Shown here: one piece after another, positions 4,400-21,113 of the stretch
Position numbering within the stretch: the first letter of the stretch is position 1
Layout: every line of letters begins with the position of its first letter
Source of the DNA: Streptomyces sp. PCS3-D2
Lineage (GTDB): Bacteria > Actinomycetota > Actinomycetes > Streptomycetales > Streptomycetaceae
Length of the DNA: 64,000 bases
NCBI RefSeq assembly: GCF_000612545.2
Contig: NZ_CP097800.1
Span: 1-64,000 of the forward strand
Direction: 5' to 3'
Notes under the pieces: generated by a model
What the model saw: only the letters and a program-made list of their open reading frames with translations
Databases searched by the model: none
Told to the model about the DNA's origin: nothing
Translations under genes and position numbers: made by a program

Positions 4400-4868
4400 C
4401 TATTGGGGTGTGTCGGCAGGGGCGAAGTGCACGTCGTAGCGGTCCTGTTCGGGCAGGAGCGCGGCGAAGGTCCAGGCCGTGCCGGATGCGGCCCAGGGTG
4501 CGGAAGTAGTCGAAGCGGTCGACGGCCGGGGTCAGCAGGACGAGCAGGTCCGCCGTGGCTGCGGGAGAAGCGCCGAACGCGTGGACGTGGCCGGGCGGTA
4601 TGCAGACGAGTCCGCCGGCGGCCACGGTCGTGGTGCGGTCGTCGAGGGTGAAGCGGGCGCTTCCGTCGAGTACGTAGAACACCTCGGTCGACCGTGCGTG
4701 GTGGTGGGCGGGGGCGCCGGTGGCGCCGCGGGGGAGGGTGAAGCGGTTGGCTCCCACCGCCGCGCCGGTGTCGGATGCGTCCGCGAGAGGCGGAACCCCC
4801 CGCCGTGGGGAAGTCGATCCGCTCGGCCTGCTCGGCGTGCACGATCAGGGGCTGTCGGGGGCGTTCAT
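4400..4868 (-). CDS. Cupin-domain protein
   Basis: The ATG at 4866-4868 opens MNAPDSPLIVHAEQAERIDF. The single cupin barrel shows motif 1 (HHHARSTEVFYVLDG) and motif 2 (LVCIPPGHVHAFG), giving the usual His/His/Glu/His metal set. It ends LPEQDRYDVHFAPADTPQ at TAG 4400-4402. Single-base shifts near 4790 and 4460 must be bridged. The substrate is unknown; small single cupins of this kind are often dioxygenases, isomerases or sensors. It is divergent from the LysR gene at 5002 and so is that regulator's likely target. Confidence 0.75.
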
Positions 4869-4927
4869 CGGCGGTCTCTCTGTGGTCTGCGGCGTGTCGT
4901 GGATGCGGTTCCATTCGATCCCGGGAA

Positions 4928-4977
4928 GCGGTCGTGATCCACCGGCTGTTGGAGAAGACAGAGATCACCGGTCGTGA
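4928..4977. promoter_or_regulatory. Repeat-bearing divergent promoter region between cupin and LysR genes
   Basis: Within the 133-bp gap, GGTCGTGA occurs directly repeated 40 bp apart (about 4930 and 4970), and GTGATC (4934-4939) faces GATCAC (4963-4968). LysR-type regulators classically bind dyads between themselves and a divergent target. The match here is suggestive only. Confidence 0.3.
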
Positions 4978-5001
4978 CGAATCGCTGCGGGAGGCGGACG
5001 G

Positions 5002-6072
5002 GTGGAACTGCGGCAGTTGAGGTATTTCGTGGCTGTTGCCGAGGAGGGCGGCTTCGGGCGGGCGGCGCAGCGGCTGGGGATCGTCCCGTCGGCCGTCAGC
5101 CAGCAGATCGGCCGGCTCGAACGCGGTTGGGGGGTGGTCCTGTTCGAGCGTACGACCCGGCGGGTGCGGCTCTCCTCGGCGGGCGAGCGGTTGCTCCCCG
5201 AGGCCCGTGCGGTTCTGGCGGCTGCCGAGCGCACGGTGCGGGTGGCCGCCGATGTCACCGCGGGTGCCGACGGTGTGCTGCGGCTGGGCGGTGTCCACGG
5301 CCCCCGGGACCGGCTGGGGCGTGTTCTGGCGCTCCTGTCCGCTGCCGCTCCCCGGCTTCAGGTGCGGCTGCGGAGGATGCCGGTCGGCGATCGGCTGGCC
5401 GCGGTACGTTCCGGGGAGCTCGACGCCGCCCTGGTGCGGGCGGTTCCTTCGGCGGCCGGCCTGGAGTTGCTGCCGCTGTGGAGCGACCCGCTGCATGTGG
5501 CCCTGCCCCAGGGCCATCCGCTGGCGGCCGAACGGGCTGGGGGCTGGACCGTTTGGCGGGGCTCGCGCTGCGTCTGGCTCCGCGCGCGGAGAACCCGTAC
5601 TTCCACGATCTGGTCGTCGACGCGTGCCGCAGGGCGGGGGCGTGCCGCCCGCCGGGCCGCCCTTCGCCGGTCTGCAGGCCACGCTCGCGGCGATCGGCAC
5701 GGCGCGCGAGGCGTCGTGGACCGTCTTCTACGAGGTCCAGGGGATGCCGTCGGTCCCGCGGTGGTGGTGCGCCCGCTGGCCGGCCTGAGCGTGACGACGT
5801 CCCTGGCGGTCCGTCCCGGTCCGCCCGATCCGGCCCTGCGCCATCTCCTGGCGGCGCTGCACCGGGTGGAGGGCGCCGTCGGGCCGGCCGGGGGGGTGTG
5901 CGCGGGTAGGCGGGTGCGGGCGCTCTCGGGCACGTGCGCTGCCTTCGGCGCTGGCAGCCTGTGGCCTGTTGCCGGGCCGCCGTGGGCCGGCCGTGTGCCG
6001 GGCGACCGTGCGACCGCGTCCTGTCCCCCGCAAGGAGTCCGGGCGCCCGGTCGGGCGGGATGTCCGGCCTGA
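5002..6072 (+). CDS. LysR-family transcriptional regulator, frameshifted
   Basis: From the GTG at 5002: MELRQLRYFVAVAEEGGFG, then the winged HTH (AAQRLGIVPSAVSQQIGRLE, FERTTRRVRLSSAGERLL) typical of LysR. The effector domain follows (GVHGPRDRLGRVLALL, RSGELDAALVRAVP). Two single-base shifts, near 5545 and 5650, then lead through NPYFHDLVVDACRRAG and FAGLQATLAAIGTAREA to the last segment, RHLLAALHRVEGAVG. The stop at 6072 lies well past the usual end (about 300 residues), so another uncorrected shift near 5890 is likely and the true 3' end is uncertain. It probably controls the divergent cupin gene. Confidence 0.8.
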   Translation: MELRQLRYFVAVAEEGGFGRAAQRLGIVPSAVSQQIGRLERGWGVVLFERTTRRVRLSSAGERLLPEARAVLAAAERTVRVAADVTAGADGVLRLGGVHGPRDRLGRVLALLSAAAPRLQVRLRRMPVGDRLAAVRSGELDAALVRAVPSAAGLELLPLWSDPLHVALPQGHPLAAERAGGWTVWRGSRCVWLRARRTRTSTIWSSTRAAGRGRAARRAALRRSAGHARGDRHGARGVVDRLLRGPGDAVGPAVVVRPLAGLSVTTSLAVRPGPPDPALRHLLAALHRVEGAVGPAGGVCAGRRVRALSGTCAAFGAGSLWPVAGPPWAGRVPGDRATASCPPQGVRAPGRAGCPA

Positions 6073-6088
6073 GGAGGAGGAGTTCTGT

Positions 6089-6994
6089 GTGTTCAGCGTA
6101 GTTTCGGGCGGGCGGGTGATGCGGCGTGTCGCCGGTCTCCTCGTGGCGCTCGCCCTGTCGGCCGGTGTGCTGGGCGCGGCCGCGCCCGCCGCCATGCCGA
6201 TCCGGACCGGCCGCTGACGGTCGTCGACTGGGACATCAGCGGTCTCGAGCACGGCGGCCAGGGGCACCACGACCGGTACTGGAACATGATCGACCAGGTG
6301 CACCGGATCAGCGGCCACGACTTCTACCAGGTGCTGGACGAGACCACGACGATGCCCGACCGGCTGATCCAGATCCGGGTGAGTCACGCCGGGCAGTACG
6401 TGGTGTCCCTCTACTACTGGGCCAACACCCTGTATCTGGCCGGGATCTACCAGCCCGGGCAGCCCGACGGCACCGGCAACCGGCACTACGTGTTCCCCGA
6501 CGGCTATCCCGACGCGTTCGAGCGGGTCCTGGGGTGCGGGCCCACCGCCTGCCCTGGAACGGGAGTTACGCCACCCTGCCCGGCGGTGGCGCCCGCGCGG
6601 AGCGGCGGCTCACCCCCCAGAACCTCCAGAACGCGCTGCTGACCCTGCGCAACACCCAGCAGCTCCTCACCACCGGGCCGGCCGGCAGACCGTCGGTTCG
6701 TACCTGGTGGACGTCATCGGCGCGACCGCCGAGGCGGCGCGCTTCGGGTACGTCTTCGACGTGATCCGGCAGAACATCGCCCACCACGCGTCGACGCCGA
6801 TCGGCCCGTTCGGTGCCGACCTCGAAACCAGCTGGGGCCAGTTGTCCGCCTGGGTGTACGCGCGGCTGCGCAACCCGGCCGGGAACGGTTTCACCATCGG
6901 TGCCCAGGGCTACAGCAGGTACTACCCGACGGTCGCCGCGCTTATCGCGAACCTGGGGTACATCCAGCTCAACGGGCACAAGCGGGGCGGCTGA
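6089..6994 (+). CDS. Secreted ricin-type ribosome-inactivating protein (rRNA N-glycosidase), frameshifted
   Basis: The GTG at 6089 follows a strong GAGGAGGAGGAG at 6071-6082. The signal peptide is RRVAGLLVALALSAGVLG. The mature chain carries the ricin A-chain signature: a Tyr in ANTLYLAGIY, a second Tyr in NGSYATLPGG, the active-site TAEAARFGYVFDVIRQN (Glu codon 6731-6733, Arg 6740-6742) and the Trp of ETSWGQLSAW (6833-6835). All five residues that line the adenine pocket in plant RIPs are therefore present. The family removes one adenine from the sarcin-ricin loop of large-subunit rRNA and stops translation. Three single-base shifts (near 6205, 6555 and 6690) break the frame. No lectin B-chain or immunity gene is seen. 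The 3' end overlaps the convergent AraC gene by 26 bp. Confidence 0.85.
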
Positions 6995-8027
6995 CACCGG
7001 CCGCCGCCCTGTGCGGCGGCGGCTCCGGGACGGGGGTGAAGGAGGCGCTCCAGTCCCGCGGTGACATCCCGTACCGCTGCCGGAAGACCCGGCTGAAGTG
7101 GTTGGGGCTGACGAAGCCCCAGCGGTGCGCGATGCGGGAGACGGTCTTCCCGCGTCCCGGTCGGGCCAGTTCCCGGGCGGCCTCTTCCAGGCGGCGCTCG
7201 CGGATCCAGGTGCCGACCGTCGTGGCGTCCTGTGCGAAGAGCCGGTGCAGGTAGCGGACGGACATGTGGTGTGCGGCGGCGATCGAGCGTGGGGAGAGGT
7301 CCGGGTCCGCCAGGTGCAGGCCGATGTGGGCGCGGACGCGTGCCATCAGGTCCGCGGTCTCCGCGGTGACGGGGCCTTGGCCGGTGGCGGGCCGGGCTGC
7401 CGGTCGGGTGCCGGCGGCGGCCCGTTCCGTGATGAGGGTGGCCAGCATGCCCGCGATGTGGCCGGCCATGCGGCCGCCGGTTTCGGCGCCCAGGTCCGGG
7501 GCCGCGTCGGCGAAGGCGGCCAGGGAGCGGGAGACGGCGGTGTCCAGGCCCGGGGCGGGCCGGACGGTGCTCCCCAGGACGGCCGTGAGGTCTGCCTGCG
7601 GGACGGCGAGCACGGCGCGCGGCAGCCGGAGCAGGTGCGTGCGGGAGGGCTCGGGAAACTCCACGGCGAGTTCGCCGCCCGAGGGCAGCAGGGCCATGTC
7701 GCCCGGTGCCAGGCGTATCCGCCTGCCGCCGCGGGAGAGCAGTGCGGTGCCCGAGGCTTGGACGGCCACGACGACGAACGGCCCGCCGCTTTCGCCGTGG
7801 GCGCCGTCGTGGTCCGTGCGGTGGGGTGTGGCTTCGAGGGTGCGTATCCGGAGGTATCCGCAGTCGCCGGTCGCGGTCTCGGCGGCGAACAGGCCCGGCT
7901 CCGCCGCCCTGTCCGCTGCCCGGCTCCTGCCCTTGCCCGTGGCCCTGTCCGCTGCCCGGGCGGGAGGGGCTTGGGGGCGCGGGGGTGTGGGGTGGGTGCG
8001 GGCCGGTTCGGTGCGGTGCGCTTGCAT
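6969..8027 (-). CDS. AraC-family regulator with cupin-like sensor domain
   Basis: This 352-residue frame is intact, a rarity in the first 15 kb. The N-terminal AraC-binding/cupin-like domain (RRIRLAPGDMALLPSGGELAV) spans roughly residues 50-180. The C-terminal double HTH has LSPRSIAAAHHMSVRYLHRLF, GTWIRERRLEEAARELA and the hallmark IAHRWGFVSPNHFSRVFRQRYGMSPRDW. The ATG at 8025-8027 gives MQAHRTEPART; a later start is possible because the first 45 residues look disordered. It is divergent from the LAL regulator across 120 bp and convergent with the RIP gene. The effector is unknown. Confidence 0.88.
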   Translation of the reverse strand: MQAHRTEPARTHPTPPRPQAPPARAADRATGKGRSRAADRAAEPGLFAAETATGDCGYLRIRTLEATPHRTDHDGAHGESGGPFVVVAVQASGTALLSRGGRRIRLAPGDMALLPSGGELAVEFPEPSRTHLLRLPRAVLAVPQADLTAVLGSTVRPAPGLDTAVSRSLAAFADAAPDLGAETGGRMAGHIAGMLATLITERAAAGTRPAARPATGQGPVTAETADLMARVRAHIGLHLADPDLSPRSIAAAHHMSVRYLHRLFAQDATTVGTWIRERRLEEAARELARPGRGKTVSRIAHRWGFVSPNHFSRVFRQRYGMSPRDWSASFTPVPEPPPHRAAAGVSRPACAR

Positions 8028-8147
8028 GCCCGGAGCGTGCCCGGGGAGGGCGGTGGTTCGGATCCTGGAAACCTCCCAGTCTCCGCCGCCCGTCCCCCGG
8101 TCCGGCGCGGCCGGTCGGGGGATGCCCGGAGCCGGTATGTTCAGTTC

Positions 8148-11036
8148 ATGATCATGAGAGGCCGGGGTGCGGAGAGCGCTCTGGTGCACCGGCTGCTGGA
8201 CGGCGGGCGCTCGGGTATGAGCGGTGTACTCGTCGTGCGCGGCGATGCCGGGATCGGCAAGACGGCCCTGCTGGACCATGCGGTCGGGTCGGCTTCGGGC
8301 CTGCAGGTCACGCGGGTCGCGGGCGTCGAGGCCGAGCAGGAGCTCGGTTTCGCGGCCGTGCACCGCGTCCTGCTGCCGTTCCTCGTGCCCGGAACCGGCT
8401 GGGCCCCAGCGCGCCGCGCTCGAGACGGCGTTCGCGATGGTGGACGGGACCGCGCCCGACCGGTTCCTGGTGGGGCTCGCCGTTCTCACCCTCCTCGCGG
8501 AGTCCGCCCGCGAAAGGCCGCTGCTGCTCGTGTGCGACGACGCCCAGTGGCTGGACCGGGAGTCGCTCGACGTCCTGGCGTTCGTGGGACGCAGGCTCCA
8601 CGCCGACGGCATCGTCGCCCTCTTCGCGCTGCGCGACGACACGGCGGCGCCGCCGGCGCTGGACGGCCTTCCCGAACTCCGGCTCGGCCGGCTGCCGCAG
8701 GCCGATGCGCTGGCGCTGCTCATGGACCACGCCGGCGGCGGGATCGACCAGGTCGTGGCCGAGCGGATCATCGCCGAGGCGGCGGGCAATCCGCTCGCCC
8801 TGCGGGAACTGGCCCAGGGGCCTCATGTCGTGGAGGCGGGGTTCGCCGGGCCGCCGGCTCTCGGGCGGCGCCTGGAGGCCCGGTTCCTGCGGCGGGTTGA
8901 GGGCCTGCCGGTGCTGACCCGGACGGTGCTGTTGGCGGCGGCCGCCGACGCGACCGGCGATCGGGACGTGCTGCGGCGGGCGGTCCGGCACCTTTCGGGG
9001 GCCGGCAACGACGACCTGGCCGAGGCCTTCGACCAGGCCGAGCGGGAGGAGTTGTTGACGGCCCGGCCCGCTCCCGGTGCGTCCTCGTTCCGTCATCCGC
9101 TGATCCGCTCGGCCGTGTACGGGGGCGCGTCGCGGGCCGCGCGTCGTTCCGTGCACGCCGCGCTCGCCGCCGTGACCGACGCGTGCGCCGAACCCGAACG
9201 GCACGCCTGGCATGCGGCGGCCGCCGCGGACGGCCCCGATGAGCAGGTCGCCTCCGCGTTGCACGGCTGTGCCGAGCGGGCCGGGAACACCGGCGGCTAC
9301 CTGGCCCGGGCCGCGTTCTTGCAGCGGGCCGCGGATCTCACCGACGATCCGGTCCGGCGGGCCACGTGGCTGCTTGAGGCCTGTGCGGCGGCCCTCATGG
9401 CCGGTGCCCCGCGTCGGGCCGAGGAGCTCCTCTCCCGGCTGCCGGCACCGGGACCGGCGGTGCCCGTGCTGGGCGCCCATGCCGGCCGGCTGGGCGGGCT
9501 GGCCCGCCTGATGCTGGGCGGAAAGGGGGCTGTCGGGCTCCTCCTGGATGCCGCCCCGGTGCTCTTCGAGCACGACCCGGCGTCCGGCCGTGACACGCTG
9601 CTGGAGGCCTTCGACGCCTCGATGGTCGCTGCCGGCCCCGGTGGCGGTGCCGGTGGTGGTGGCGGTGCCGGTGGTGGCGGTGCCGATGGTGGTGGCGGTG
9701 CCCTGCGGGTGGCCCGTGCCGCGCTCGGTGTCGCCGGCCGCGGGGACGCGGCGCCCGGTGCGGACGCGTGCGTCGCCGACCTGCTCCTGGACGGTCACGC
9801 CCGGCTGGTCGCCGTCGGCTACCGCGCGGGCGTGCCGTCGCTGCGGGCGGCCCTCGCGGCGATGACCCGGCCCGGCGCGGAAGAGGGCGGAGCGGTCCGC
9901 TGGAGCCTGCTGGGGATGGTCGCCGCCGTCGAGTTGTGGGACATCGACGCCCTGGGGGAATGCGGGCGGCGGTACGCCGATGCCGCGCGCGGCCACGGGG
10001 CGCTGCGCATGCTCCAGATCAGCGCACACGCCAACGCGACCTCGGAGGTGTTCCGCGGCAACCTGGTCGGTGCGCAGGCGCACTTCGCGGAGTTCAAGGA
10101 CATCGCGGACGCGACCGGGGCCGATCCGCGGTTGTCCCACCCCACCGATGTGATGCTGCACGCCTGGCGCGGGGACGAGGCGGCGACTCTGTCGGCGGTC
10201 GCGGCGCAGCGGGAGCTGTGTCCCGAGGCGCCCGGCGGGATCCAGGCGCAACTGGCCCGTGCGGCACTGGTCGTGCTCGGGCTGGGCGGGCGCCGCTACC
10301 CGCAGGCCCAGGCCGCGGCCCAGGCGGTTCTCGACGATCCGCCGCCGCACTGCGCCGGGCTCGGCCTTCCCGGCCTGGTCGAGGCCGCCGTCCGCAACGG
10401 CGATCCGGGCGTGGCCTCGCGGGCGTTGGAGCTGCTGGCCGAGCGGGCCACGGCCAGCGGCACCCCGTGGGCGCTGGGGCTGCTGGCCCGAAGCCGCGCC
10501 CTGGTCGCGCCGGGACCGGCGGCGGAGGAGCTGTTCCGGGAGGCGTCCGCGCATCTGGAGCCGACGCCGCTGCTGACCGAGAAGGCGCACACGGACCTCC
10601 TGCACGGGGAGTGGCTGCGTCGGCAGCGCCGCAGGCACGACGCCCGGGTGCTGCTGCGGCGCGCCCACGAGCGGTTCGCCTCGATGGGGGCGGCCGCCTT
10701 CGCCGAGCGGGCCCGTCTGGAGCTGCGGGCCACGGGCGAGCAGGCGCGCGGGCGGGACGCGGGGGCGGGGCGGCAGCTGACCCGCAGGAGTCCCGGGTCG
10801 CGCGGTTGGCGGCTCGCGGTGCTACCAATCAGGAGATCGCGACGGACTTGTTCCTCAGCGCGAGCACGGTGGAGTACCACCTCGGCAAGGTCTTCCGGAA
10901 GCTCGGCGTCCTCCTCGCGCCGGCAGCTGGCGGGGGTCGCTGCCCCTGGGGTAGCGGAGGGCCCGCGGGGGTGGCCGGTGCCGGGGGGTGCTGTGTCGGC
11001 CGGCCGGTGGCACAAGGGCTGGTCGGGGGCGGGTGA
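8148..11036 (+). CDS. LAL-type LuxR regulator with AAA/STAND ATPase domain, frameshifted
   Basis: A large ATP-binding regulator of the LuxR family. The N-terminal NTPase has Walker [14 protein letters not shown] and Walker [14 protein letters not shown] long helical TPR-like middle follows, and the C-terminal LuxR HTH reads [18 protein letters not shown] and [18 protein letters not shown]. Single-base shifts near 8395, 10785 and 10905 separate the Walker A block, the body and the HTH. The exact 3' end is uncertain because of a further shift around [11 protein letters not shown]. The ATG at 8148 is chosen because it gives the usual short lead into the Walker A, although no strong ribosome binding site precedes it. 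Relatives (MalT, PikD) activate metabolic or antibiotic operons. Confidence 0.85.
9640..9702 (+). repeat. Gly-rich microsatellite-like insert in the LAL gene
   Basis: Repeats of GGTGGTGGCGGTGCC encode a run of about 20 Gly/Ala/Asp residues in the helical middle of the regulator, between SMVAAGP and [10 protein letters not shown]. Low-complexity linkers like this arise by replication slippage and vary between strains. Confidence 0.7.
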
Positions 11037-11288
11037 ATCGTCATCTAAGATTCAAGCTGGCCGCGGGGCCGGGTGCTCGTCGCTGTGTGCGGCGACCGCG
11101 GAAGGGCAGGCCGGCCGGTCGATGAGAGCGGCCCGCGTCAGGGGTTCCGGTGCGGTCCGGACGGGGGACCGTCTGACCGCTGATCACGAAGCTCCCGGGG
11201 AATCGCGTGCCGTCGGCGTGCGTCTCAGTGGTGTGAGATGCCCAGCCCGCACGCCCACGCACAGGAGACCGCCGGGGAGAAGTGAGGT

Positions 11289-11970
11289 ATGGCAGTGATC
11301 TGCGTCGGAGGCATGATCGGGATCGGCAAGACGAGTGTGGCCGAAACTCCCTCGCCAAGGAACTGGGGCAGCGACGTCTTCTAACGAGAGCGTCGAGGAC
11401 AATCCGACTCCTTCCGCTCTTCTACACGGCGAGCCCCGAGGAGATCCAGGCGAGGCGCTACCCCTTCCTGCTCCAGCTCTACTTCCTGCAGACCCGGTTT
11501 CGCCTCGATCAGGAGGCGTACAAGCAGGGCGACAACGTCCTGGACCGGTCCATCTACGAGGACTGTACTTCGCCAAGGTCAACCACGACCTGGGCCGGAT
11601 CAGCTCCCTGGAGATGCGGGTGTAACGAGGGCCTGCTGGGCGAGATGATGCGCGAGATCGACGGCCTGCCGTACCGCAAGGCGCCCGACCTGATGGTCTA
11701 CCTGAAGGCGGACTTCGAGACGGTGCTGCACCGGATCGGCCTGCGGGGGCCGTGACTTCGAACAGGACGAGGGCCTCGTCGAGTACTACCGCACCCTGTG
11801 GTCGGGCTACGACGACTGGGTGAACCTGCACTACTCGGCCAGGCGAGGTTCTCGTCGTCGACATGAACCGCACGGACGTCGTGCACAACCCCGACGACGC
11901 CGCCCGCGTGGTCCGGGAGGTCAAGGACGCCCTGGCCGCGGTCCGGCAGAACGCCGCGGCCGGTCTCTGA
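11289..11970 (+). CDS. Deoxynucleoside kinase, frameshifted
   Basis: Joined frames give a full-length kinase of about 220 residues. It has the P-loop GGMIGIGKTSVA, then LQLYFLQTRF, the DRSIYED motif (nucleoside-site Glu-Asp-Arg region), PDLMVYLKADFETVLHRI, the LID-like RGRDFEQDEGL, and a C-terminus ending AAVRQNAAAGL at TGA 11968-11970. It phosphorylates deoxyadenosine, deoxyguanosine or a related deoxynucleoside with ATP in the salvage pathway. The ATG at 11289 follows GGAGA/GAGG. Seven or more single-base indels (for example extra A in TTCTAACGAG and GTGTAACGAG, extra G in CTGGGGCAGC) occur within 680 bp, the densest cluster in the window. Confidence 0.88.
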
Positions 11971-12098
11971 CCCGCGGGCCGGTGGTCTCCCCCGTGCGGG
12001 GGAGACGCCGCGACCTGCGGACGATGCCCGGACACCTGGCGGGTGGCGACGATCAGGACTCGTCCCGTCAGATTCAGATTCCGGAACCGGAGCTCACC

Positions 12099-12329
12099 AT
12101 GCCGAAGTGGACCCTGCGCGTCATCGCCGTCTCTCGCCGTCCGCCGCCGCGATCGCCGCCCCCGCGGCGGTGGGCCGCGCCCGAGCCGGCGCCCGCCGCA
12201 GCGGCGGCCCCCGTGGCCGCACGGGAGGCATCCGCGGCCGCGCCGTGGGCTCCGCCGCCGCGCCGGAGACCGGGCTCGCCTCCGCCGGTGCGCGAGACGA
12301 CGCCGTCGGACCACGCGTTCTCCCTCTGA
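12099..12329 (+). CDS. Small Ala/Pro-rich, possibly secreted protein
   Basis: The ATG at 12099 follows GGAG (12089-12092). The first 12 residues (MPKWTLRVIAVS) are charged then hydrophobic, and in the next frame continue AIAAPAAVG, so a signal peptide split by one shift near 12135 is likely. The rest is Ala/Pro-rich and ends PSDHAFSL. I do not recognise a family. It sits between the nucleoside kinase and the eIF5A-like gene. It may be a small exported protein or, less likely, chance coding. Confidence 0.35.
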   Translation: MPKWTLRVIAVSRRPPPRSPPPRRWAAPEPAPAAAAAPVAAREASAAAPWAPPPRRRPGSPPPVRETTPSDHAFSL

Positions 12330-12571
12330 GCGACGCCCGGGGGCGGCGCCGTAACCGGGGGCGGGGGGTCCTCGTCGTCGTACCCGTGCGGTGTGCCCGT
12401 GCGGTGTACCCGGTGCCGAGCCGGGAGGGGGCGGGTGCGCTGCCGGCCCCCGGTAGGCGCGGGCTTGCGTGCCCGCGTTCACCCCGTCGGGGGCAATGGC
12501 CGGTGGTTCACGCGGCGGAAGGTGGTCTACTGCGGCTCGACCAGCGCAAACCGGCGTGAGCAGGAGGCAGT

Positions 12572-13040
12572 ATGAGCGGCCGTGGACCTGGATTTCGAAC
12601 CGCCCGCGGAAGCGGGTGGGAGCGGCACGTTCCCGATGCGGGCGGGGGGCCCTGCGCAGGAACGGCCAGTGCTCGTCGACGGCGTTGTCTGCAGGCTCAC
12701 CGACGTCTCGATCTCGAAGCCGGCCAGCACGGTCCGACCGAGGTGCATCTCGCGGGGGTCGACGTGTTCACCGGTGAGAAGCACGAGGACGTGCACCCCT
12801 CCTCCCGCGACGTGGAGGTGCCGGTGGTGGTCTGCACCGAGTACGTGCTGGCCGGTGTCGACGGGCGGTCGCCTCCGCTTGGTGGACGTGTCCACGGGAG
12901 AGGCCGGGGAAGACGTTCGCGCTGCCGGAGGGCGCCCTCGGCCGGCCGTCGAGGGCGACTTCACCGCCGGCAAGGACGTCCGGGTCACCGTGACCCGCGC
13001 GCTGGGCCGGGCAGCGGTCACCGGCCACCGCGCGCGGTAG
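12572..13040 (+). CDS. Eukaryote-type translation factor eIF5A homologue lacking the hypusine lysine, frameshifted
   Basis: The ATG at 12572 follows AGGAGG at 12562-12567. Joined frames read DLDFEP, GTFPMRAGALRRNGHVLVDG, CRLTDVSISKTGQHGPTEVHL, AGVDVFTGEKHEDVHPSS, RDVEVPVVV, then the OB-fold half RLRLVDVSTGEAGEDVRLPEG, VEGDFTAGKDVRVTV, TRALGR. This follows eukaryotic eIF5A from end to end (TFPMQCSALRKNG, STSKTGKHGHAKVHL, DIFTGKKYEDICPSTHN, LRLPEG). Bacteria normally use EF-P instead. The hypusinated lysine of TGKHG is a Gln codon (CAG, 12725-12727). About five single-base indels break the frame (near 12580, 12643, 12720, 12880 and 12925). No deoxyhypusine synthase is in the window. Its role in translation is unknown. 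Confidence 0.8.
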
Positions 13041-13107
13041 GCCCGGCGGCCGTGACCCGCGCACGGCGCCGTCCGCGCGGCTGGGACCTCCCGCCGGACA
13101 CACGCAA

Positions 13108-13140
13108 GACGCCCGGCCGGGAAGGTCCCGGCCGGGCGTC
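13108..13140. terminator. Bidirectional hairpin terminator
   Basis: GACGCCCGGCCGGGA (13108-13122) and TCCCGGCCGGGCGTC (13126-13140) form a perfect 15-bp stem with a 3-nt loop. It lies between the convergent eIF5A-like gene and the transglycosylase-like gene and can serve both. Confidence 0.85.
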
Positions 13141-13172
13141 TTCGATTGTGCGTGGGCCTGCACGCTGGCGGC

Positions 13173-13580
13173 TTAGTACCAGTGGGTGGGTCTGCCAGAA
13201 GTTCCAGGCGCCGACGGTGGCTGCCGTAGCGCGCGTTCATGTAGTTCAGGCCCCACTTGATCTGGGTGGCCGGGTTGGTCTTCCAGTCGGCGCCCGCGGA
13301 GGCCATCTTCGAGGCCGGCAGGGCCTGGACCAGGCCGTACGCGCCGGAGGAGGCGTTGGTGGCGGTGTGTTCCAGCCGCTCTCGCGGGAAACGATGTTGT
13401 TGAAGGCCGCGAACTGCGCCGGGTCCTTGATCATCTGCTGGGCGATCGCCTTGGCGCTCGTCGGGGCCGCCTGGGCGGGAACCGCGGCGAGCATGGAACC
13501 GGCGACACCGAGGGCGGACGACGGTTGCCCGCGAGGGCCTTCTTGGAGGCGGCGATGCGGCGGATGACGGAGTGGGACAC
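13173..13580 (-). CDS. Secreted transglycosylase-like (SLT/lysozyme-like) protein, frameshifted
   Basis: From the GTG at 13578-13580: MSHSVIRRIAASKKALAG, then a signal core (ALGVAGSMLAAVPAQA). The lysozyme-like domain follows: IAQQMIKDPAQFAAFNNIVSRESGWN with a catalytic-type Glu in SRESGWN, SSGAYGLVQALPASKMASAG, ATQIKWGLNYMNARYG, and an ending NFWQTHHWY at TAA 13173-13175. Such short actinobacterial proteins act on peptidoglycan outside the cell. At least three single-base shifts (near 13515, 13375 and 13225) break the frame. The minus-strand ribosome binding site candidate is GGAAGG. Confidence 0.82.
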
Positions 13581-14235
13581 GGAGATACCTTCCACAGGGG
13601 GACAAGGGCGGTCCGCGGCATGCCTGGGGCATGCGTGAGCCACTCACGCGGTGGAGAGGGGTTCGTCCGGCGGCGGGTGAGGACCCGTGCCGCCCGGCGA
13701 CTCATCCAGTTCTACAGACGCCCCGACCCCCTGGCAACGACCGCCATTACTAGGGGGCTTCGCAGTCAGGGAACCGGCGGACCGGTGCCGGGCGGGGCGG
13801 GGTTGGGCGCAGGTGGGAGCCGGATGAGGGGGTTACGGGAGGGGTGCGGGGTCTACTATCGCGGTTCGTGTGTGACGTGAGTCCTATGGGGCGGGTCACC
13901 CCCGGGACGCCCGGACCTCACCGTCTGTCACTGGATGTACCCCTTTGAGAAACCGAGCAAATGTCCGTATTGCGCTGGATTCAAAGGAAATGAACAGTTT
14001 TGGGCTGTCCTTCTGTCCGACGCGGTCCGGCACGTGGAGTCGGGAGCACGCCCACGGAGGGCCCGGGTCTGGACCCGCCGGGGGTCGAGGTCGCCGGGGC
14101 GAGCCGCCCGCGATCGCCCGGAAGACCACGCCGCGGACCGCGGCGGACCGCGGCGGACCGCGGGAGGGCAGGCCGTGCGCGAGGTGCGGCGCGGGTTCGC
14201 GGCGGGCGGGGGCGGCCGGCGGTAGGGTGCGGGCC
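13581..14235. other. Gene-free interval
   Basis: No supported gene. It holds promoter-like AT-rich patches near 13960-14000 and three tandem copies of the 10-mer CGGCGGACCG around 14133-14163, just before the allantoinase-like gene. Confidence 0.5.
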
Positions 14236-15161
14236 GTGTCCGATCAGCAGCGTGAGCAGCAGCGGCGTGATCTCGCCGGCTACGGGGCCGAGCCGCCGCG
14301 CGCGGCGTGGCCCGGGGGCGCCCGTGTCGCCGTCAGCCTCGTACTGAACTACGAGGAGGGCGGGGAGCAGAACGTCCTGGAGGGCGACCGCACCTCGGAG
14401 GGGTACCTCCACGAAGTCGTAGGCGCGCCGCCCGTGACCGGCGGGCGCGACCTGAACGTGGAGTCGATGTTCGCCTACGGCTCGCGCGCCGGCTTCTGGC
14501 GCATCCACCGCACACTGGCGGCGCACCGTGCGCCACTGACCGTGTACCGCCGTGGGACAGGCCCTGGAACGCAACCCGACGCGGCGCGCGCGATGGGGGC
14601 GGCGGGCTGGGAGGTGGCGGGCCACGGCTGGCGCTGGATCGACTACCGGCACGTGCCCGAGAACGTCGAGCGGGACGACATCGCACGCACGGCCGAGGCG
14701 ATCGGGCGGCTCGTCGGGCGCCGGCCGGTGGGCTGGTACACCGGCCGGACCAGCGCGAACACACGGCGCCTGGTCGCCGGGGAGGGCGGCTTCCTCTACG
14801 ACAGCGACGACTACTCGGACGACCTGCCGTTCTATGTGGAGGCGGGCGGCCGGCGCCCGCACCTGGTGGTGCCGTACAGCCTCGACGCAAACGACTTCAA
14901 GTTCCTGATCGTCCACGGCTTCACCACCGCGGACGACATGCTCGCCTACCTGGTCGACACCTTCGAGACGCTCCGCGCCGAGGGCGCGGACCGGCCGCGG
15001 ATGATGAGCGTCGGCATGCACTGCCGAATCATCGGGCGGCCCGGGCGAATCCGCGCGCTCGACGGGTTCTTGAAACACGTCGCGCAGCGGGGCGGGGCGT
15101 GGATGGCCACGCGGGAGGAGATCGCACGGCACTGGCTGGCCACGCACCGCCCGCCGACTGA
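14236..15161 (+). CDS. puuE: PuuE-type allantoinase / polysaccharide-deacetylase-fold hydrolase
   Basis: The GTG at 14236 gives SDQQREQQRRDLAGYG. Family signatures follow: ARVAVSLVLNYEEGGEQNVL, NVESMFAYGSRAGFWRIHR, EVAGHGWRWIDY, DDYSDDLPFYVE and MMSVGMHCRIIGRPGR. PuuE is a metal-independent allantoinase of the polysaccharide deacetylase fold that opens the allantoin ring in urate catabolism. Other members deacetylate chitin oligomers, so the substrate is inferred. An inserted C near 14552 and a lost G near 14578 break the frame around VYAVGQALERNPDAA. The TGA at 15159-15161 lies out of the main frame, so the exact end is uncertain by a few codons. Confidence 0.83.
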
Positions 15162-15187
15162 CTGCACACCGTGCACGCACGGCGTGC

Positions 15188-15215
15188 AGGACGCAGGACG
15201 CAGGACGCAGGACGC
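15188..15215. repeat. Four tandem AGGACGC heptamers
   Basis: AGGACGC is repeated four times without spacer directly after the allantoinase-like gene and about 20 bp before the tRNA gene. Seen directly; function unknown. Confidence 0.85.
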
Positions 15216-15236
15216 CTCTAGGATGCCGGGCGGGCG

Positions 15237-15310
15237 GGGGCGTAGCGCAGAGGTCGTCGCGCGCGGTCTCCAAAACCGTGAGGACGCCGGTTCGAATCCG
15301 GTCGGCCCCG
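15237..15310 (+). tRNA. Atypical tRNA-Trp (CCA)
   Basis: The order is acceptor GGGGCGT, D-arm GCGC with AGAGGTCGTC in the loop, anticodon arm GCGGT-CTCCAAA-ACCGT (anticodon CCA), T-arm GCCGG-TTCGAAT-CCGGT, and acceptor GGCCCC with discriminator G. The acceptor pairs fully only if one extra G near 15303 is dropped, in line with the indel-rich stretch just upstream. Streptomyces usually carry one tRNA-Trp, so this may be an extra copy or a decayed one. tRNA genes are common attachment sites for integrative elements; none is seen here. Confidence 0.75.
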
Positions 15311-15340
15311 TCCGCTCCGCCCCTCGGCCACCTCGCGACC

Positions 15341-15400
15341 GTCCCCACGTCACCCTTCGGCCGCCGGCAGGGACCGGCGACCGAAGGGTGACGTGGGGAC
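15341..15400. terminator. Long perfect inverted repeat after the tRNA
   Basis: The arms 15341-15360 (GTCCCCACGTCACCCTTCGG) and 15381-15400 are exact reverse complements over 20 bp with a 20-nt spacer. It lies between the tRNA and the end of the convergent secreted-protein gene. Bidirectional terminator is likely; a protein-binding dyad is the alternative. Confidence 0.65.
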
Positions 15401-15475
15401 CGGTTCGCGCCGAACATTCCCGGCCCTGCCGGTCGCCCCGCAGGGCCTGCGCCTGCGGGGCCTGCGCCTGCGGGT

Positions 15476-15907
15476 CTACGCGGGGGTCTGGACCTTGTCG
15501 GGGTTGTCCTTGCCCACGACCACCGGGTCCGGCTTGGTGTCCGGCTTGGGGGTCGGGGCGGGCTTGTCGGGCTGGTGCTCGCAGTAGACCTTGCCCTGGT
15601 AGAACTTGCAGCCCGGCATGTTCTCCACGTCGCGGACCTTGTCCTTCTTGCCGTGACGCTTCTGGTTCTTCTCGCCCTTGTCGCGCTTGTCGTGCTTATC
15701 GCGCTTGTCGTGGTTCTGACCCTTCTCCCACGCCTCCTTCTTGCCGCTGTTCTCGTGACCGCTCTTCGCGTGGGCAGCGGCCGAGGTCGCGCCGGTCGCG
15801 GCCGGGGCGGCGAAAGCGCTGGTGGGGACCAGTGCGCCCCCTCCGACGATCGCGGCCGAGACGGCGTACAGGGCGAAGCGCTGCTTTCGGGAGGTGGTGC
15901 GGAACAT
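15476..15907 (-). CDS. Secreted Lys/Asp-rich low-complexity protein
   Basis: This 143-residue frame is intact. MFRTTSRKQRFALYAVSAAIVG begins a signal peptide ending near AFAAPAATG. The mature chain is strongly charged (EKGQNHDKRDKHDKRDKGEK), then has a short unit with two Cys (MPGCKFYQGKVYCEHQ) and a Pro/Lys/Asp tail ending DNPDKVQTPA. No family is recognised. The two Cys could form a disulfide outside the cell. The basic linker resembles that of the repeat protein at 21169-22035, suggesting a related cell-surface role (inference). Confidence 0.75.
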   Translation of the reverse strand: MFRTTSRKQRFALYAVSAAIVGGGALVPTSAFAAPAATGATSAAAHAKSGHENSGKKEAWEKGQNHDKRDKHDKRDKGEKNQKRHGKKDKVRDVENMPGCKFYQGKVYCEHQPDKPAPTPKPDTKPDPVVVGKDNPDKVQTPA

Positions 15908-16261
15908 GAGGACGACTCCAGATGAGAGGTGGGGGGAGGGTCGGATCCAGAGAACTCGGTGCGAAATGTCTGGTTTGTTCTCTTATGGAAAAGGCTGGCT
16001 GTCTGACTTCATGGAGCTGTCCGCCGACTGTCACAGGCGCGTGACAGGCCGCGCGGCTCCTGGCGCCTGGCATCTGCGGCGCCCCTGCGGCTGCCCTGGT
16101 ACGGGGGCCGGGACAGCAGGACCGGTGGGCGCGGGGCGTGGCACGGGGCCGAAGTCGGGCCGGGAGGCGTCGCTGCCTGCCCGGCTCCTCCCGCAGGAGT
16201 CGGTGGACGCGGGCCGGGAGCGCGGTGGATCGGCCCCGGCCCAGGGTCCGCGGCCGGGCGG

Positions 16262-17086
16262 TCAGCCGGCCAGGGGGACGGCGATGTCGCAGGCCGGGTC
16301 GGCCGGGCCGATCCCGGACCAGTCCGCGAAGTAGACCTCGCGGGGCGCAGCCGCCGTGGTGCGGGCCTCGCGCTGCGCCCAGGCGTAGACCGCGTCGTAG
16401 GCGGAGAGGATCTGCGGGTAGGCCGTCTGCGCCTTGGTGAGGCGGGTGTAGGCCTGGGTGTGGGCCGGTTCGGTGCGGGAGGCCGCCGGGAGCAGGCCGG
16501 CGCGGGCCGGGTCCACCGGCACGCAGAGCTCGACGGGGCCGTCGCTGTCCTCATTGACCTCCCCGTGGTAGATGACGAACGGGTGGCCGAAGAAGCCACC
16601 GTGCGCGTGTGCCACCTGAGCCAGTCGGCCCAGGGCCGCGGGGATCCAGTCGGGCAGCTCTTCCGGGGTGATGTGCCGCTGTTCCGTGAGGACCAGCTGC
16701 TGCGGCACCTCACGCTCCTTGATCTCGTACATGTCCGTACTCCCTTCGCCTCCGAGCAGGTGGATACGGAGGTGCGCCGCCAGCTCGCGCTGTGCCGCGT
16801 GGCGGCGCTCGACGCCGTCCCAGTACTCGGCCACCAGCCGGGCCGCCTCCGGGGCGGGGGCGGCCAGGACCGCGCCGACGTCGGCCAGCGGCATGTCCAG
16901 CCCGCGCAGCCGCACGATCAGCCGGGCGGCGGCGAGCCGGCTCTCCCGGTAGTACCGGTATCCGGTGACGGCGTCGACGTGGTCGGGCGGCAGCAGGCCG
17001 TGGCGGTCGTACAGCCGCAGGGCCTTGTGCGACAGCCGCGCCCGGCGGGCGAACGCGCCGATGCTGAGCAGTGCTTCTTCCTCCAT
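16262..17086 (-). CDS. MerR-family regulator with GyrI-like effector domain
   Basis: A 274-residue intact gene. The N-terminal MerR HTH has LLSIGAFARRARLSHKALRLY, DRHGLLPPDHVDAVTGYRYY and a coiled-coil linker. The C-terminal half begins YEIKEREVPQQLVL and continues with PDWIPAALGRLAQVA, GPVELCVPVDPA and the closing SGIGPADPACDIAVPLAG, matching the GyrI-like/BmrR-type small-molecule-binding fold. BmrR relatives activate multidrug efflux when they bind cationic drugs; no transporter is adjacent, so the target is unknown. Confidence 0.88.
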   Translation of the reverse strand: MEEEALLSIGAFARRARLSHKALRLYDRHGLLPPDHVDAVTGYRYYRESRLAAARLIVRLRGLDMPLADVGAVLAAPAPEAARLVAEYWDGVERRHAAQRELAAHLRIHLLGGEGSTDMYEIKEREVPQQLVLTEQRHITPEELPDWIPAALGRLAQVAHAHGGFFGHPFVIYHGEVNEDSDGPVELCVPVDPARAGLLPAASRTEPAHTQAYTRLTKAQTAYPQILSAYDAVYAWAQREARTTAAAPREVYFADWSGIGPADPACDIAVPLAG

Positions 17087-17841
17087 GGCCGCTACGCTCC
17101 CCTCTCCCCCAGGGTCAGGGTCAACCGGGCGGGCTCAGCAGTCACCGGGGTCGCCCAGCAGGGGTGCGCCGACAGTAGCGGGCGGCGGCGTGCGCGACGG
17201 CGAGCAGGCCCCGGGCGGCGCGGGGCGGCGGCCCGGGACGAGTTGAGGCGGCCGGCGAGGGGGTTCCGGCGGGCTTCGCGGCCCATCGGGGGCAGTCCGC
17301 CGGAGGCCTCCAGTCCGAGGAGGGGAACCGCACCCCCCTTTCTCTCCCCTTCTCTCACCTCCTCTCCCCCTTTTTCCCTCCTTCTCCCCCGTCCTGTCCC
17401 GCGTCTTCTCCTCCGTCAGGGTCCGGTCCGCGCCGCGGCTCCGGTGTTCCGCGACGGCATGGGCGCGTCCGTCCGCCGCGGCCGCGCCGAGGAACTCGGC
17501 CTGGACACCCGCCTCGCCGGGGCGGCGGTCTGCTGCGGGACATCGGCCAGCCCGTCGTCCGGCTTGCCGTCCTGCGCATCACCCTCGAGGTGGAGGTGCG
17601 TGTCACTCCGCCCGAGGAGGAAGGGGGCGAACGGCCCAACGGGAGCCACGAGGTCGGCGTGATCGAGCCGATCGGCTTCCGCCGGGCCGTCCGGCTCCCG
17701 AACTTGCGGGCTTGCGGGCTTGCGGTGCCGCTCCTGCCGCGCTGGCCGCCCTCCGTGCGGCGGGGGCCGTCCCCGCCTTGGCCTCTGTCGCCGACGACCG
17801 CCATCGGGGAACACCCGGCGCAGCCACGGGCGGTCGGGCGG
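17087..17841. other. Gene-free or undecoded interval
   Basis: No gene can be supported. A pyrimidine-rich run of C and T tracts lies at about 17335-17410. Downstream, on the plus strand, a patch reads EELGLDTRLAG then DIGQPVVRLAVLRITLEVEVRV across a frame change, which might be a decayed or misread gene, but I cannot assign it. Confidence 0.4.
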
Positions 17842-18384
17842 TCAGGCGGTGCGGCGCGGGCGCATGGGACGGCGCGGGCGGCGGCGGACAGCAGGGGCCT
17901 CCGGGGCAGCCTGCGGTGAGGAGAACCCGCCTGCCACGGGCAGGGGGGACGCAGCCGGTGCGGTGGCCGGAGTGGGGACTGCGGCCGCGGGCGGGGCCTG
18001 GCGGGCCGGCGGTCGGGCACTGCCGAGGATGGCGGTGTGCGCGATGAGCGGCGCGCAGGACTGGCAGATCTCGGCGAGCGTCCAGACCTGTCCCACGGCC
18101 GGGTTGTGGACCAGGACCAGGAGGGCGGAGCCGGTGCACTGGGTGCGGGCCTCGTGGAAGGCGCACTGCGCGGCCCGGCAGGCGCACGCGGCGTTGGGCC
18201 GGACGGTCGCCAACCGGGCGTGGGCCCGGACGTGCTCGGCGGCGAACCGTTTCAGGGCCGCGGTGTCCTTCGAACGGGGCGGCATCCGGCAGGCTTCGGT
18301 GCTGCAGGTGACGGAGGCGCTGTGATCGGCGTGGCCGGTGAGCCGGACCGTCCAGGTCCGGCCGGGCACGCGGGATCCGGGCAT
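17842..18384 (-). CDS. Cys-containing hypothetical protein
   Basis: An intact frame of 180 residues from the ATG at 18382-18384 (MPGSRVPGRTWTVRLTGHAD). Six or seven Cys/His residues are clustered: SVTCSTEACRMPP, ACACRAAQCAFHEA, TQCTGS and EICQSCAPLIAH, a pattern suggesting bound zinc. The C-terminal 50 residues are Ala/Pro/Arg-rich. It resembles a conserved uncharacterised actinomycete protein with no known function. Neighbours give no clue. Confidence 0.65.
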   Translation of the reverse strand: MPGSRVPGRTWTVRLTGHADHSASVTCSTEACRMPPRSKDTAALKRFAAEHVRAHARLATVRPNAACACRAAQCAFHEARTQCTGSALLVLVHNPAVGQVWTLAEICQSCAPLIAHTAILGSARPPARQAPPAAAVPTPATAPAASPLPVAGGFSSPQAAPEAPAVRRRPRRPMRPRRTA

Positions 18385-19584
18385 GAGGGTCAAGTCGGGG
18401 TCCGATCGTCGTGTTTCAGGTGGGTCGGTCGCGGCCGGTCGCACCGACGTGGCGCCGATCGCGGCGGGGTGGACCCCGCGGACTGTCGTCCCGGGCGGCG
18501 TCTGCGGTGGCGGCGCCGGGCAGCGGAGAAACGGACATCGCGCGGCCTCGGACCTGGGGTCTTCGGCCTTTTTCGCACGTCCCGCAGGTCCTGTCAATGG
18601 CGCGTACCCGTCCGGCCGTCCGCCGGACAGGGGCAGGAAGGGGAGGGGAAGGGACGGGGACCGGACGGGACAGGACAAGTGGGCCCGGGGTCCGCCCGGG
18701 ACGCGCCCGGGAGGCCTGTCGGCCGTGGCGGGTGCGGGCGATTCGGGCGGCGGAGCGGGCGGGCGAAAACTCCCGGGAAGTCAGCACGCCCACGGAACGG
18801 GCCGGCGGGGCGCCGGCGCCGGCTCCGTGGCCGCCTGCGGGCAGCGCTCCGACTGCCTCGTCTGCCGTTCCTGGGCACCGTCTGCGGCGCACAATTCCCC
18901 CGGCGGGTGCGGACGATGGTCCTGTCCTGAACCGGGCCTGCGCCCCGCGCCCGTACGCGGAGGTGTACGGGCAACACGGCCGTCTGCGGGTTCGGCGAAG
19001 ACGCTGGAGGCGACCCCGGCCATCACCGCGAGCGGACACCGGCGCGGGCCGCGAGGTCCGTCGTCCCGACCGGAGCGCGGCGCTGCGGGCGGCAGGCTCT
19101 ACCCCGATCCGGTGCCGGCGACGACCGGGCCCCGCCCCCCTCTACGGGACGCCGCGGCCCCCGCCCGGGGCGCTGGAGATCGGCCGGCTGCCGGTCTTCG
19201 CCGCCGAGGCGCACTGATTGCGACCACAGCGTGTGGGGCAGCGCTCTCGCCTCCGGCCGCCTCGCGACTGCGGCGCTGCCCGCAAGGGCGTCGCCCGCAC
19301 CGGACGAGCTCTCGGAACCGGTCGGCAGGCGCAGCACGGGTTCCGGGGCCGACGAGACACGCATTGTGGTCCCCTCAGTGATCTCCGCGTAGCACCCGGC
19401 ACCGCGTCGAGTACCCGAACCGGACAGGCGGACTGGCGGTGTGGGCGGGAGGGGAAGCGGGCGAGGTACGGCCCCCGTCGCAGCCATGAGGGCCAGGACC
19501 GCACCCCGCACCAGGCACCTACCCGACACCGCCCGGCCGACACCCGCCGGCGCGGGCGGTGCCTGAGCCCGCGCCGCACATACG
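18385..19584. other. Gene-free interval
   Basis: About 1.2 kb with many overlapping open frames on both strands but no recognisable protein. A minus-strand ATG at about 19364 preceded by GAGGGG could start a short protein (MRVSSAPEPVLRLPTG), but nothing in it is familiar. Confidence 0.45.
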
Positions 19585-19621
19585 GCGACTCCTCGCAGAG
19601 GTTGCCTCTGCGAGGAGTCGC
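19585..19621. terminator. Hairpin terminator of the first repeat protein
   Basis: GCGACTCCTCGCAGAG (19585-19600) pairs perfectly with CTCTGCGAGGAGTCGC (19606-19621) over 16 bp with loop GTTGC. It lies 28 bp past the stop of the minus-strand gene at 19650. The loop-proximal half CTCGCAGAG is shared with the hairpin after the second repeat protein. Confidence 0.85.
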
Positions 19622-19649
19622 ACTCGACCACCGGCCGCTGGTCTGCTGG

Positions 19650-20747
19650 TCAGCCCTGGGTTCCGCCCTGGGTGTTGCCGTTACCGCCACCCTGGGTTCC
19701 GCCCTGGGTGTTGCCGTTACCGCCACCCTGGGTTCCACCCTGAGTGTTCCCGGTGCCACCACCCTGGGTTCCACCCTGCGTGTTCCCGGTGCCACCACCC
19801 TGCGTACCACCCTGCGTGTTCCCGGTGCCACCACCCTGCGTACCACCCTGAGTGTTCCCGGTGCCACCACCCTGCGTACCACCCTGAGTGTTCCCGGTGC
19901 CACCACCCTGCGTACCACCCTGAGTGTTCCCGGTGCCACCACCCTGCGTACCACCCTGAGTGTTCCCGGTGCCACCACCCTGCGTACCACCCTGAGTGTT
20001 GCCATTGCCGCCACCCTGGGTTCCACCCTGAGTGTTCCCGGTGCCGCCACCCTGGGTTCCACCCTGAGTGTTCCCGGTGCCACCACCCTGCGTACCGCCC
20101 TGAGTGTTGCCATTGCCGCCACCCTGGGTTCCACCCTGAGTGTTGCCATTACCGGCGCCCTGCGTACCACCCTGGGTGTTGCCATTACCGATCTGGGTGC
20201 CACCAATGGTGTTGTTCGAACCGCCGATGATCGTGTTGTTGACGATGTTCGTTACGTTGTTGGTCACCTGGTTCACCACGGAGGGCGCCAGCCCGAGCTT
20301 CTTCGCTTCCGAAGCCGCTGCCTTTCGACCGATGGCGGCTGCCTGCGCCTTGGAGGCTCCGCCTCGCGCTGCCTGCTGGGCTGCGGCTGTGCCTCGTGCT
20401 GTTGCCACTGCGATGTCGGCCTTCGTGGAGGCGGATCCGGTCGGGGTGCATCGGACCGTGCCTACGGAGACCGGACCGCTGCCGGTGATTTCGACCCGGA
20501 TGTCGCCCTTCGGTCCGGTGGCGGCGCGGGCGATGGTCTTCCCGTTGCGCTTGACGTCGTAGGTCTGCTTGAGGGCGAAGCCCTTGCCGCGGATCTCGCC
20601 GTTCTTCAGGCTGCACACCGCCGCCGCCGGGGCTGCGGTCGAAAGTGCGGAAGCCTGGGAAGCGAATGTCACTCCCGCCGTTCCGGCGAGTATCGCGGTG
20701 ACACAGGACAGACCGGCAATGTTGGCGACGCGCTTCTTCCTCGACAT
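19650..20747 (-). CDS. Secreted Gly/Asn/Thr/Gln repeat protein A
   Basis: A 365-residue intact frame. The signal peptide is MSRKKRVANIAGLSC then AILAGTAGVTFASQASA. A globular segment follows with two Cys (VCSLKNGEIRG, GTVRCTPTGS), then an Ala-rich helix and an Asn-rich spacer (VNQVTNNVTNIVNNT). The rest is about 15 copies of the 12-mer GGTQGGG(N/T)GNTQ ending GGTQG. The same unit dominates the paralogue at 21169. No family is recognised. Gln/Asn/Gly repeats of this type suggest an extended or self-associating surface or matrix protein (inference). Own promoter region and own terminator; not in an operon. Confidence 0.8.
   Translation of the reverse strand: MSRKKRVANIAGLSCVTAILAGTAGVTFASQASALSTAAPAAAVCSLKNGEIRGKGFALKQTYDVKRNGKTIARAATGPKGDIRVEITGSGPVSVGTVRCTPTGSASTKADIAVATARGTAAAQQAARGGASKAQAAAIGRKAAASEAKKLGLAPSVVNQVTNNVTNIVNNTIIGGSNNTIGGTQIGNGNTQGGTQGAGNGNTQGGTQGGGNGNTQGGTQGGGTGNTQGGTQGGGTGNTQGGTQGGGNGNTQGGTQGGGTGNTQGGTQGGGTGNTQGGTQGGGTGNTQGGTQGGGTGNTQGGTQGGGTGNTQGGTQGGGTGNTQGGTQGGGTGNTQGGTQGGGNGNTQGGTQGGGNGNTQGGTQG
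19651..20195 (-). repeat. 36-bp tandem array in repeat protein A
   Basis: About 15 in-frame 36-bp units encoding GGTQGGGNGNTQ or the Thr variant GGTQGGGTGNTQ. Seven Thr-type units are consecutive, flanked by Asn-type units, so the array looks homogenised in the middle and diverged at the edges, as expected for slippage or unequal exchange. Confidence 0.9.
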
Positions 20748-20896
20748 TTAAATCTCCTTTGAATGGTCGACCCGGATTCCGAGTTTTTCTGCGAGCCGGG
20801 GATTCGGCTTGCCAGGTGCCTCGGTTCCGTTTACTGGCCGATCGGTTTATCTGTCTCCAGATTGCCGTTTTCGGGCGCGGGGAGAAAGCGACGGAG

Positions 20897-20910
20897 ATTC
20901 GGGGCTTGAC
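20897..20910. promoter_or_regulatory. Conserved ATTCGGGGCTTGAC element, copy 1
   Basis: The same 14-mer recurs exactly at 22210-22223, and all but its first T at 23549-23561. This copy sits 150 bp upstream of repeat protein A. On the plus strand it contains a TTGACA -35-like hexamer; on the minus strand it reads GTCAAGCCCCGAAT. Orientation of action is undecided. Confidence 0.5.
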
Positions 20911-21104: not shown

Positions 21105-21113
21105 AAGGGGACG

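Follow-up and report, generated by a model that had tools for sequence, protein, structure and literature searches.

What is a gene for a eukaryote-type translation factor doing at the end of a Streptomyces replicon, and what can its product do if the hypusine lysine has been replaced? These questions are raised by the window, i.e. the whole 64,000-nucleotide stretch of Streptomyces sp. PCS3-D2 analysed here, which is the left end of contig C1 of its assembly (G000). A core eukaryotic translation factor entering bacteria would be an unusual case, and literature searches for Streptomyces with eIF5A and with eukaryote-to-prokaryote transfer listed no publication whose title or abstract beginning deals with a Streptomyces eIF5A. 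According to passages of PMC9117371, the hypusine loop is strictly conserved and hypusine is absent from bacteria. The features at issue are:

12572..13040, + strand: eIF5A-like gene found with Pfam eIF-5a, frame broken in this copy; intact copy of 155 aa at G000:C2:88018-88485
12725..12727, + strand: CAG codon, giving Gln where eIF5A has its hypusine Lys (human K50); same residue in both other copies and in S. amritsarensis
1..36151, no strand: part of a terminal inverted repeat, recurring inverted at the right end of C1

A Pfam eIF-5a search of the assembly found three copies of the gene, in the window, at the right end of C1 and on contig C2. They are copies of one terminal repeat, since the right end of C1 holds window 1-36151 in inverted form and C2 (75414-100000) also contains window 1-24526. 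The C2 copy is an open frame encoding the 155-aa protein P0001, so that the window gene needs no mending. Over 469 window bases the two are set apart by a single substitution and by differences in length at seven places, each of one base, and the third copy shows other length differences than the window copy; the frame breaks in the window gene are assembly-level. The preliminary description had bridged single-base shifts to recover segments of eIF5A; these segments are present in the window, and the bridging was correct, the C2 copy reading as one intact frame. Many single-base length differences to C2 occur in window 11290-13614, where the kinase and transglycosylase frames are also broken, and this end of C1 looks unpolished. 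C2 itself runs about 75 kb past the shared terminal repeat (G000:C2:1-75413). The ends of C1 are not the telomeres if C2 is chromosomal; alternatively, C2 may be a linear plasmid sharing that end.

The family assignment is clear from sequence profiles. P0001 scores above the curated cut-offs of Pfam IF5A-like_N (E 2.9e-22) and Pfam eIF-5a (E 5.2e-12) and reaches 94.9 bits with NCBIfam TIGR00037 eIF_5A (cut-off 75.45); it thus has the N-terminal KOW-like and the C-terminal OB domain of the eIF5A family and shares the two-domain architecture of eukaryotic eIF5A (TIGR00037, Pfam PF21485 and PF01287) along its full length. It also has the N-terminal stretch type and the FTGxKxED segment of the eukaryotic proteins, with identities of 43-46% (human, yeast and 9rvu chains) and 34% (Arabidopsis). 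All 28 PDB sequences matched with phmmer at E up to 1e-3 are named eIF5A or IF5A; eukaryotic chains rank on top (best 133 bits), and 1eif, which we take to be archaeal, is the best of its kind with 67 bits. Taken together, these matches go far beyond what chance would give. Bacterial EF-P (actinobacterial, PGKGP loop) belongs to the same superfamily and likewise has KOW-like and OB domains, but it is a three-domain protein, and none of the models EFP_N, EFP and Elong-fact-P_C matches P0001 at E up to 1, nor is there a third EF-P domain. The genome carries both proteins: the EF-P domain was found once in it, in an ordinary EF-P with all three domains and the loop HVKPGKGPAFVR. We could therefore rule out that P0001 is EF-P, and the initial identification as a eukaryote-type eIF5A, which was to be checked by eIF-5a and EF-P profile searches, holds. 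AlphaFold on A6 returned a mean pLDDT of 31, useless as a model, so that the assignment of the fold rests on the profiles.

The preliminary description had further proposed that the hypusine lysine is replaced by Gln through no indel error and that the protein works independently of hypusine. In the loop region, human STSKTGKHGHAKV corresponds to SISKPGQHGPTEV in the window protein and to SISKSAQRGLVEV in the S. amritsarensis orthologue. All three copies in the assembly encode Gln at the hypusine position, as does this second species, which rules out a sequencing artefact; the conserved Lys in an exposed loop that marks a hypusinated eIF5A is thus missing. Nor was the enzyme found: a hypusinated eIF5A needs deoxyhypusine synthase in its cell, whereas Pfam PF01916 found no such synthase in the window protein's own genome, in any of four further sequence sets (S. 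amritsarensis, G247 and two S. anulatus plasmids) or in any of 96 genus genomes, own included. The positive control of this search matched in 7 of 14 control genomes. With no modifiable Lys, no synthase found, an ordinary EF-P in the same genome, and Gln together with purifying selection in a second species, hypusine independence stands. Around the Gln, 8 of 13 residues are alike in the two orthologues, below the 75% of the whole protein, and the Gln itself may therefore not be functional.

Along with the Lys, the basic residues within the loop are lost, and with them the basic N-domain of a hypusinated eIF5A. The net charge of the N-domain is -2 (pI 6.1) in the window protein and -1 (pI 6.4) in S. 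amritsarensis, compared with +5 in both human and yeast eIF5A (pI 9.4 and 9.6, respectively). A Lys-keeping homologue of S. anulatus has +4, and a loop-deleted homologue of another genus (G449) has -1. The C-domain carries -1 and -2 in the Gln-type proteins, -9 in human, -11 in yeast and -8 in G449. Judging from the sequences, both lineages that lost the hypusine site have also ceased to have a basic N-domain. This loss of charge would argue against canonical ribosome binding and makes RNA binding and ribosome competition, two roles suggested at the outset, less likely.

Is the gene functional at all? S. amritsarensis carries a syntenic, gapless orthologue (L026:7626-8093) with 75% protein identity to the window protein. 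The genes are 86% identical at the DNA level without a gap in 468 bases, compared with 61% identity and seven gap openings in the upstream spacer. The 66 differences over 155 codons are spread 20/24/22 across the codon positions. For these two orthologues, the only ones found, dN/dS is 0.76 with NG86, 0.28 with YN00 and 0.29 with ML; GY94 with F3x4 frequencies gives 0.284 and rejects neutrality (dN/dS = 1; 2dlnL 15.6, p = 8e-5). The open frame in both species and the GY94 value speak for purifying selection on a functional gene, and the NG86 value speaks against it. The neighbouring kinase is much tighter (dN/dS 0.037), and beside it the constraint on the eIF5A gene is weak, given the even spread over codon positions and the NG86 value. 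We read the eIF5A gene here as real yet loosely constrained.

Upstream conservation with S. amritsarensis is confined to roughly 100 bases immediately ahead of the start, with the following elements:

12521..12546, + strand: 26-bp leader block; the S. amritsarensis orthologue is preceded by an identical block, and S. anulatus eif5A by a similar one in register
12562..12567, + strand: AGGAGG, resembling a ribosome-binding site and preceding the ATG at 12572 (direct reading)

The 26-bp block is possibly a promoter or 5' UTR element. When leaders were compared in start-codon register, the 105-base leader of S. anulatus eif5A ranked first among those of 49 S. anulatus genes in the comparison with both G000 (7.5, next -1.5) and S. 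amritsarensis (11.0, next -0.5), and it stayed on top when the last 15 bases were taken away (9.0 versus 0.5 and 4.0 versus 0.5). The 49 genes (eif5A included) came from 58 annotated features of L013 and L014, after exclusion of cut genes, of L014 genes repeating L013 ones and of the gene at L013:8580. A local comparison of upstream regions was non-specific, other 120-base stretches of window and plasmid scoring 20.5 and 18.5 versus 14.5; the comparison in start-codon register is the only one that singles out the eif5A leader.

The genes around eIF5A are:

11290..11970, + strand: deoxynucleoside kinase, upstream neighbour (its C2 copy matches Pfam dNK); broken here, start approximate
12099..12329, + strand: small alanine-rich protein between kinase and eIF5A, limits approximate; the S. 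yangpuensis block has a related one
13173..13614, - strand: transglycosylase SLT-domain protein, downstream neighbour; broken here, limits approximate
14257..15153, + strand: allantoinase (PuuE)-like gene, 90% identical to an S. yangpuensis protein in tblastn (299 residues); start approximate

The order in the window is thus dNK, small protein, eIF5A, SLT transglycosylase and PuuE-like gene; in S. amritsarensis it is dNK, eIF5A, DUF4344 metallopeptidase, ferritin-like, SLT and PuuE-like. A plasmid of S. yangpuensis has a related block (L067:1274-9143) of dNK, small protein, sialidase, DUF4344, DUF998, hypothetical, ferritin-like, SLT and PuuE, in which eIF5A is missing and the sialidase takes its place. 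A comparable block lies on an S. lavendulae plasmid (query coverage 46%, identity 89%), in which P0001 has no match. Of 121 genus genomes, 13 carry a close dNK gene, the own genome being one of them; near the 12 others (11-12 kb stretches for nine, 3-kb loci for three) we found neither an eIF5A nor the SLT protein. As these dNK blocks without it show, a block of linear-replicon ends can do without eIF5A, which is an optional insert there. No secondary-metabolism genes were seen among the immediate neighbours (kinase, alanine-rich protein, transglycosylase, PuuE-like gene), and the suggestion of a factor linked to secondary metabolism is not supported.

We found eIF5A to be very rare in related bacteria. 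Searching with P0001, three of 393 genomes drawn from the genus gave a match (own, G247 and G058), and with profile A2 two did (own, G247). The G058 match (E 9e-4) was dropped, as there is no eIF5A frame at the locus and the match is absent with the profile. The draws from the family (own and G449 out of 395) and the phylum (own and G854 out of 396) gave two each, and among 199 relatives of S. amritsarensis only this species itself carries the gene; these draws overlap. Six of 72,556 plasmid records match, all from S. anulatus, and none of 50,697 phage records does. Two scans of genome contigs with short exact peptide patterns yielded nothing in one and two loci in the other, S. amritsarensis and a eukaryotic contaminant. 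The G854 locus (G854:C114, L062) encodes, as judged by eye, an archaeal-type aIF5A on a small contig of an actinobacterial genome and is probably contamination. A contig titled Verrucomicrobiaceae (JAIYDP010000409.1, L027) reads as eukaryotic, with a split gene and a neighbour that is presumably XPF-like; it is probably contamination, too, and was used only as a eukaryotic row in the tree. G247 (C1:122196-122345, L006) has kept no more than the 5' part of a eukaryote-type eIF5A gene, and this truncated piece still encodes the Lys.

The homologue in G449, another genus of the Streptomycetaceae (G449:C1:533895-534308, L035:1477-2040), sits between what we recognised by eye as transposase genes. 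It shares with the window protein the eukaryote-type sequence, the missing hypusine site and the negative N-domain, but is only 37% identical to it and has lost the site by deletion of six alignment columns of the hypusine loop, where the window protein has a substitution. The S. anulatus plasmid protein (WP_097967592) is likewise eukaryote-type and encoded near linear-replicon ends, 5.4 kb from an end in five of six records and 20.7 kb in one. In contrast to P0001, to which it is 43% identical, it keeps the Lys (SKAGKNG), and the neighbours of its gene differ from those of the window gene. It is 64% identical to yeast eIF5A. In its record it is annotated as 'translation initiation factor IF-5A'; such genes are thus already annotated.

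On plasmid NZ_CP109284.1 of this species, the fungal-like eIF5A (L013:5441-5911) and a TCTP gene (L013:12072-12563) lie 6.2 kb apart near the linear end. TCTP occurs in four of the six records with eif5A, and also on plasmids of S. fungicidicus (65%) and S. globisporus (34%).

Where did these genes come from? Contamination by a eukaryotic contig can be ruled out as the source of the window gene, which lies within a Streptomyces block that is also conserved by S. amritsarensis and has a GC3 of 0.90 itself. This value is nearer to those of two resident genes (0.96 and 0.98) than are the values of the S. anulatus (0.80) and G449 (0.73) genes, pointing to long residence. An origin outside bacteria is supported, in line with the horizontal acquisition suggested at the outset. 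A tree of 17 rows split the Streptomycetaceae rows, eukaryotes and Hex-1 from archaea at 100/100. The tree does not place the Gln-type inside any eukaryotic group, nor does it reject a position of this type between eukaryotes and archaea. A single clade uniting the four Streptomycetaceae proteins received p-AU values of 0.03 and 0.067 in two tests, for which reason the G449 eIF5A may have a separate origin. Not rejected were one clade of G000, S. amritsarensis and S. anulatus (p 0.35), S. anulatus with yeast (p 0.22), the Gln-type and archaea on one side of a branch (p 0.36) and the Gln-type with G449 (p 0.078); all five groupings of the second test were picked after the first tree had been seen. 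The likeness of the leaders in start register suggests that the Lys-keeping and Gln types share one bacterial ancestor, which the tree does not reject. For the S. anulatus plasmid a fungal source is plausible, given the identity of its eIF5A to that of yeast and a TCTP that is closest in the PDB to 1h6q, which we take to be from S. pombe.

What the protein does can be approached by weighing several explanations. We favour, with a probability of roughly 55%, that a eukaryote-type eIF5A was acquired, kept and repurposed as a hypusine-independent binding or assembly protein while EF-P serves translation. The gene would have entered Streptomyces and been kept as accessory cargo of linear-replicon ends, and in the window lineage its product would have become hypusine-independent. 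It would no longer stimulate peptide-bond formation from the ribosomal E site, unlike hypusinated eIF5A, and the surfaces of the eIF5A fold might be used for binding or assembly as in fungal Hex-1, with EF-P presumably doing the translation job in the same cell. Unmodified EF-P-type loops that work are known, so that a translation role is possible for the window protein too: as an auxiliary factor it could still bind bacterial ribosomes close to the E site and function with its loop tip unmodified, like E. coli EfpL, and serve a subset of mRNAs or compete with EF-P. We consider this a rather doubtful alternative. Both eIF5A domains are intact, the EfpL loop tip is given as unmodified in passages of PMC11611912, and the G000 loop PGQHGP recalls PGKGP of the host EF-P; however, this PGxxGP likeness is missing in S. 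amritsarensis (SAQRGL), a third EF-P domain is lacking, the N-domain charge has shifted to -2/-1 from +5, basic residues of the loop have disappeared, and unmodified human eIF5A was inactive in a methionyl-puromycin assay, as a passage of PMC9117371 has it.

The gene could also be decaying, an acquired eIF5A that was never useful in bacteria and drifts, its hypusine site lost for want of a modifier. The very patchy distribution, the 20/24/22 spread with the NG86 value, the truncated fragment in G247, the loop deletion between transposases in G449 and the related S. yangpuensis block without eIF5A would all fit. We nevertheless regard decay as unlikely, because the two orthologous genes, 86% identical in DNA, both keep an open frame and align without gaps between gapped flanks, dN/dS is 0.28 (p = 8e-5) after correction for codon frequencies, and leader and ribosome-binding site are conserved. 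Very unlikely, in our view, is a protein directed at eukaryotes, i.e. a mimic of eIF5A that targets fungi or other neighbours and might, for instance, occupy a eukaryotic partner while not being open to hypusination. Its eukaryote-type sequence and the eukaryote-type TCTP on Streptomyces replicons, near eif5A in S. anulatus, are in keeping with such a role, but we recognised no secretion signal on direct reading of the translated start and, in incidental reading, no delivery genes among the named neighbours, and in loop and charge the Gln-type has lost its likeness to the eukaryotic surface.

Our preferred reading of a repurposed eIF5A has its model in Hex-1, which self-assembles into a solid core and has a non-translational job. 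Hex-1, the Woronin body major protein (1khi), and the window protein are both related to eIF5A and without the hypusine Lys, the Hex-1 loop reading TGQH. The N-terminal part of 1khi is longer and its chain ends in SRL, presumably a peroxisomal signal, whereas P0001 ends in RAR; the 28 PDB sequences that P0001 matched at E 1e-3 include no Hex-1. In a passage of PMC6371581, Hex-1 is suggested to have arisen by eIF-5A gene duplication. By analogy, filamentous bacteria might have repeated this route, an eIF5A on linear-replicon ends losing hypusine and ribosome binding more than once and becoming a structural or assembly protein of hypha or cell; we hold this wider scenario to be improbable. The site was lost in two modes, by substitution in Streptomyces and by loop deletion in the second genus. 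A eukaryote-type eIF5A is under selection in a bacterium without a detected hypusine-making enzyme, and a second genus has lost the loop; these natural hypusine-free proteins, together with the Lys-keeping S. anulatus relative, offer a test of what the fold can do without the modification.

Finally, the window holds two arrays of a 36-bp tandem repeat, at 19654-20180 and 21173-21807, with 14.6 and 17.6 copies, respectively.
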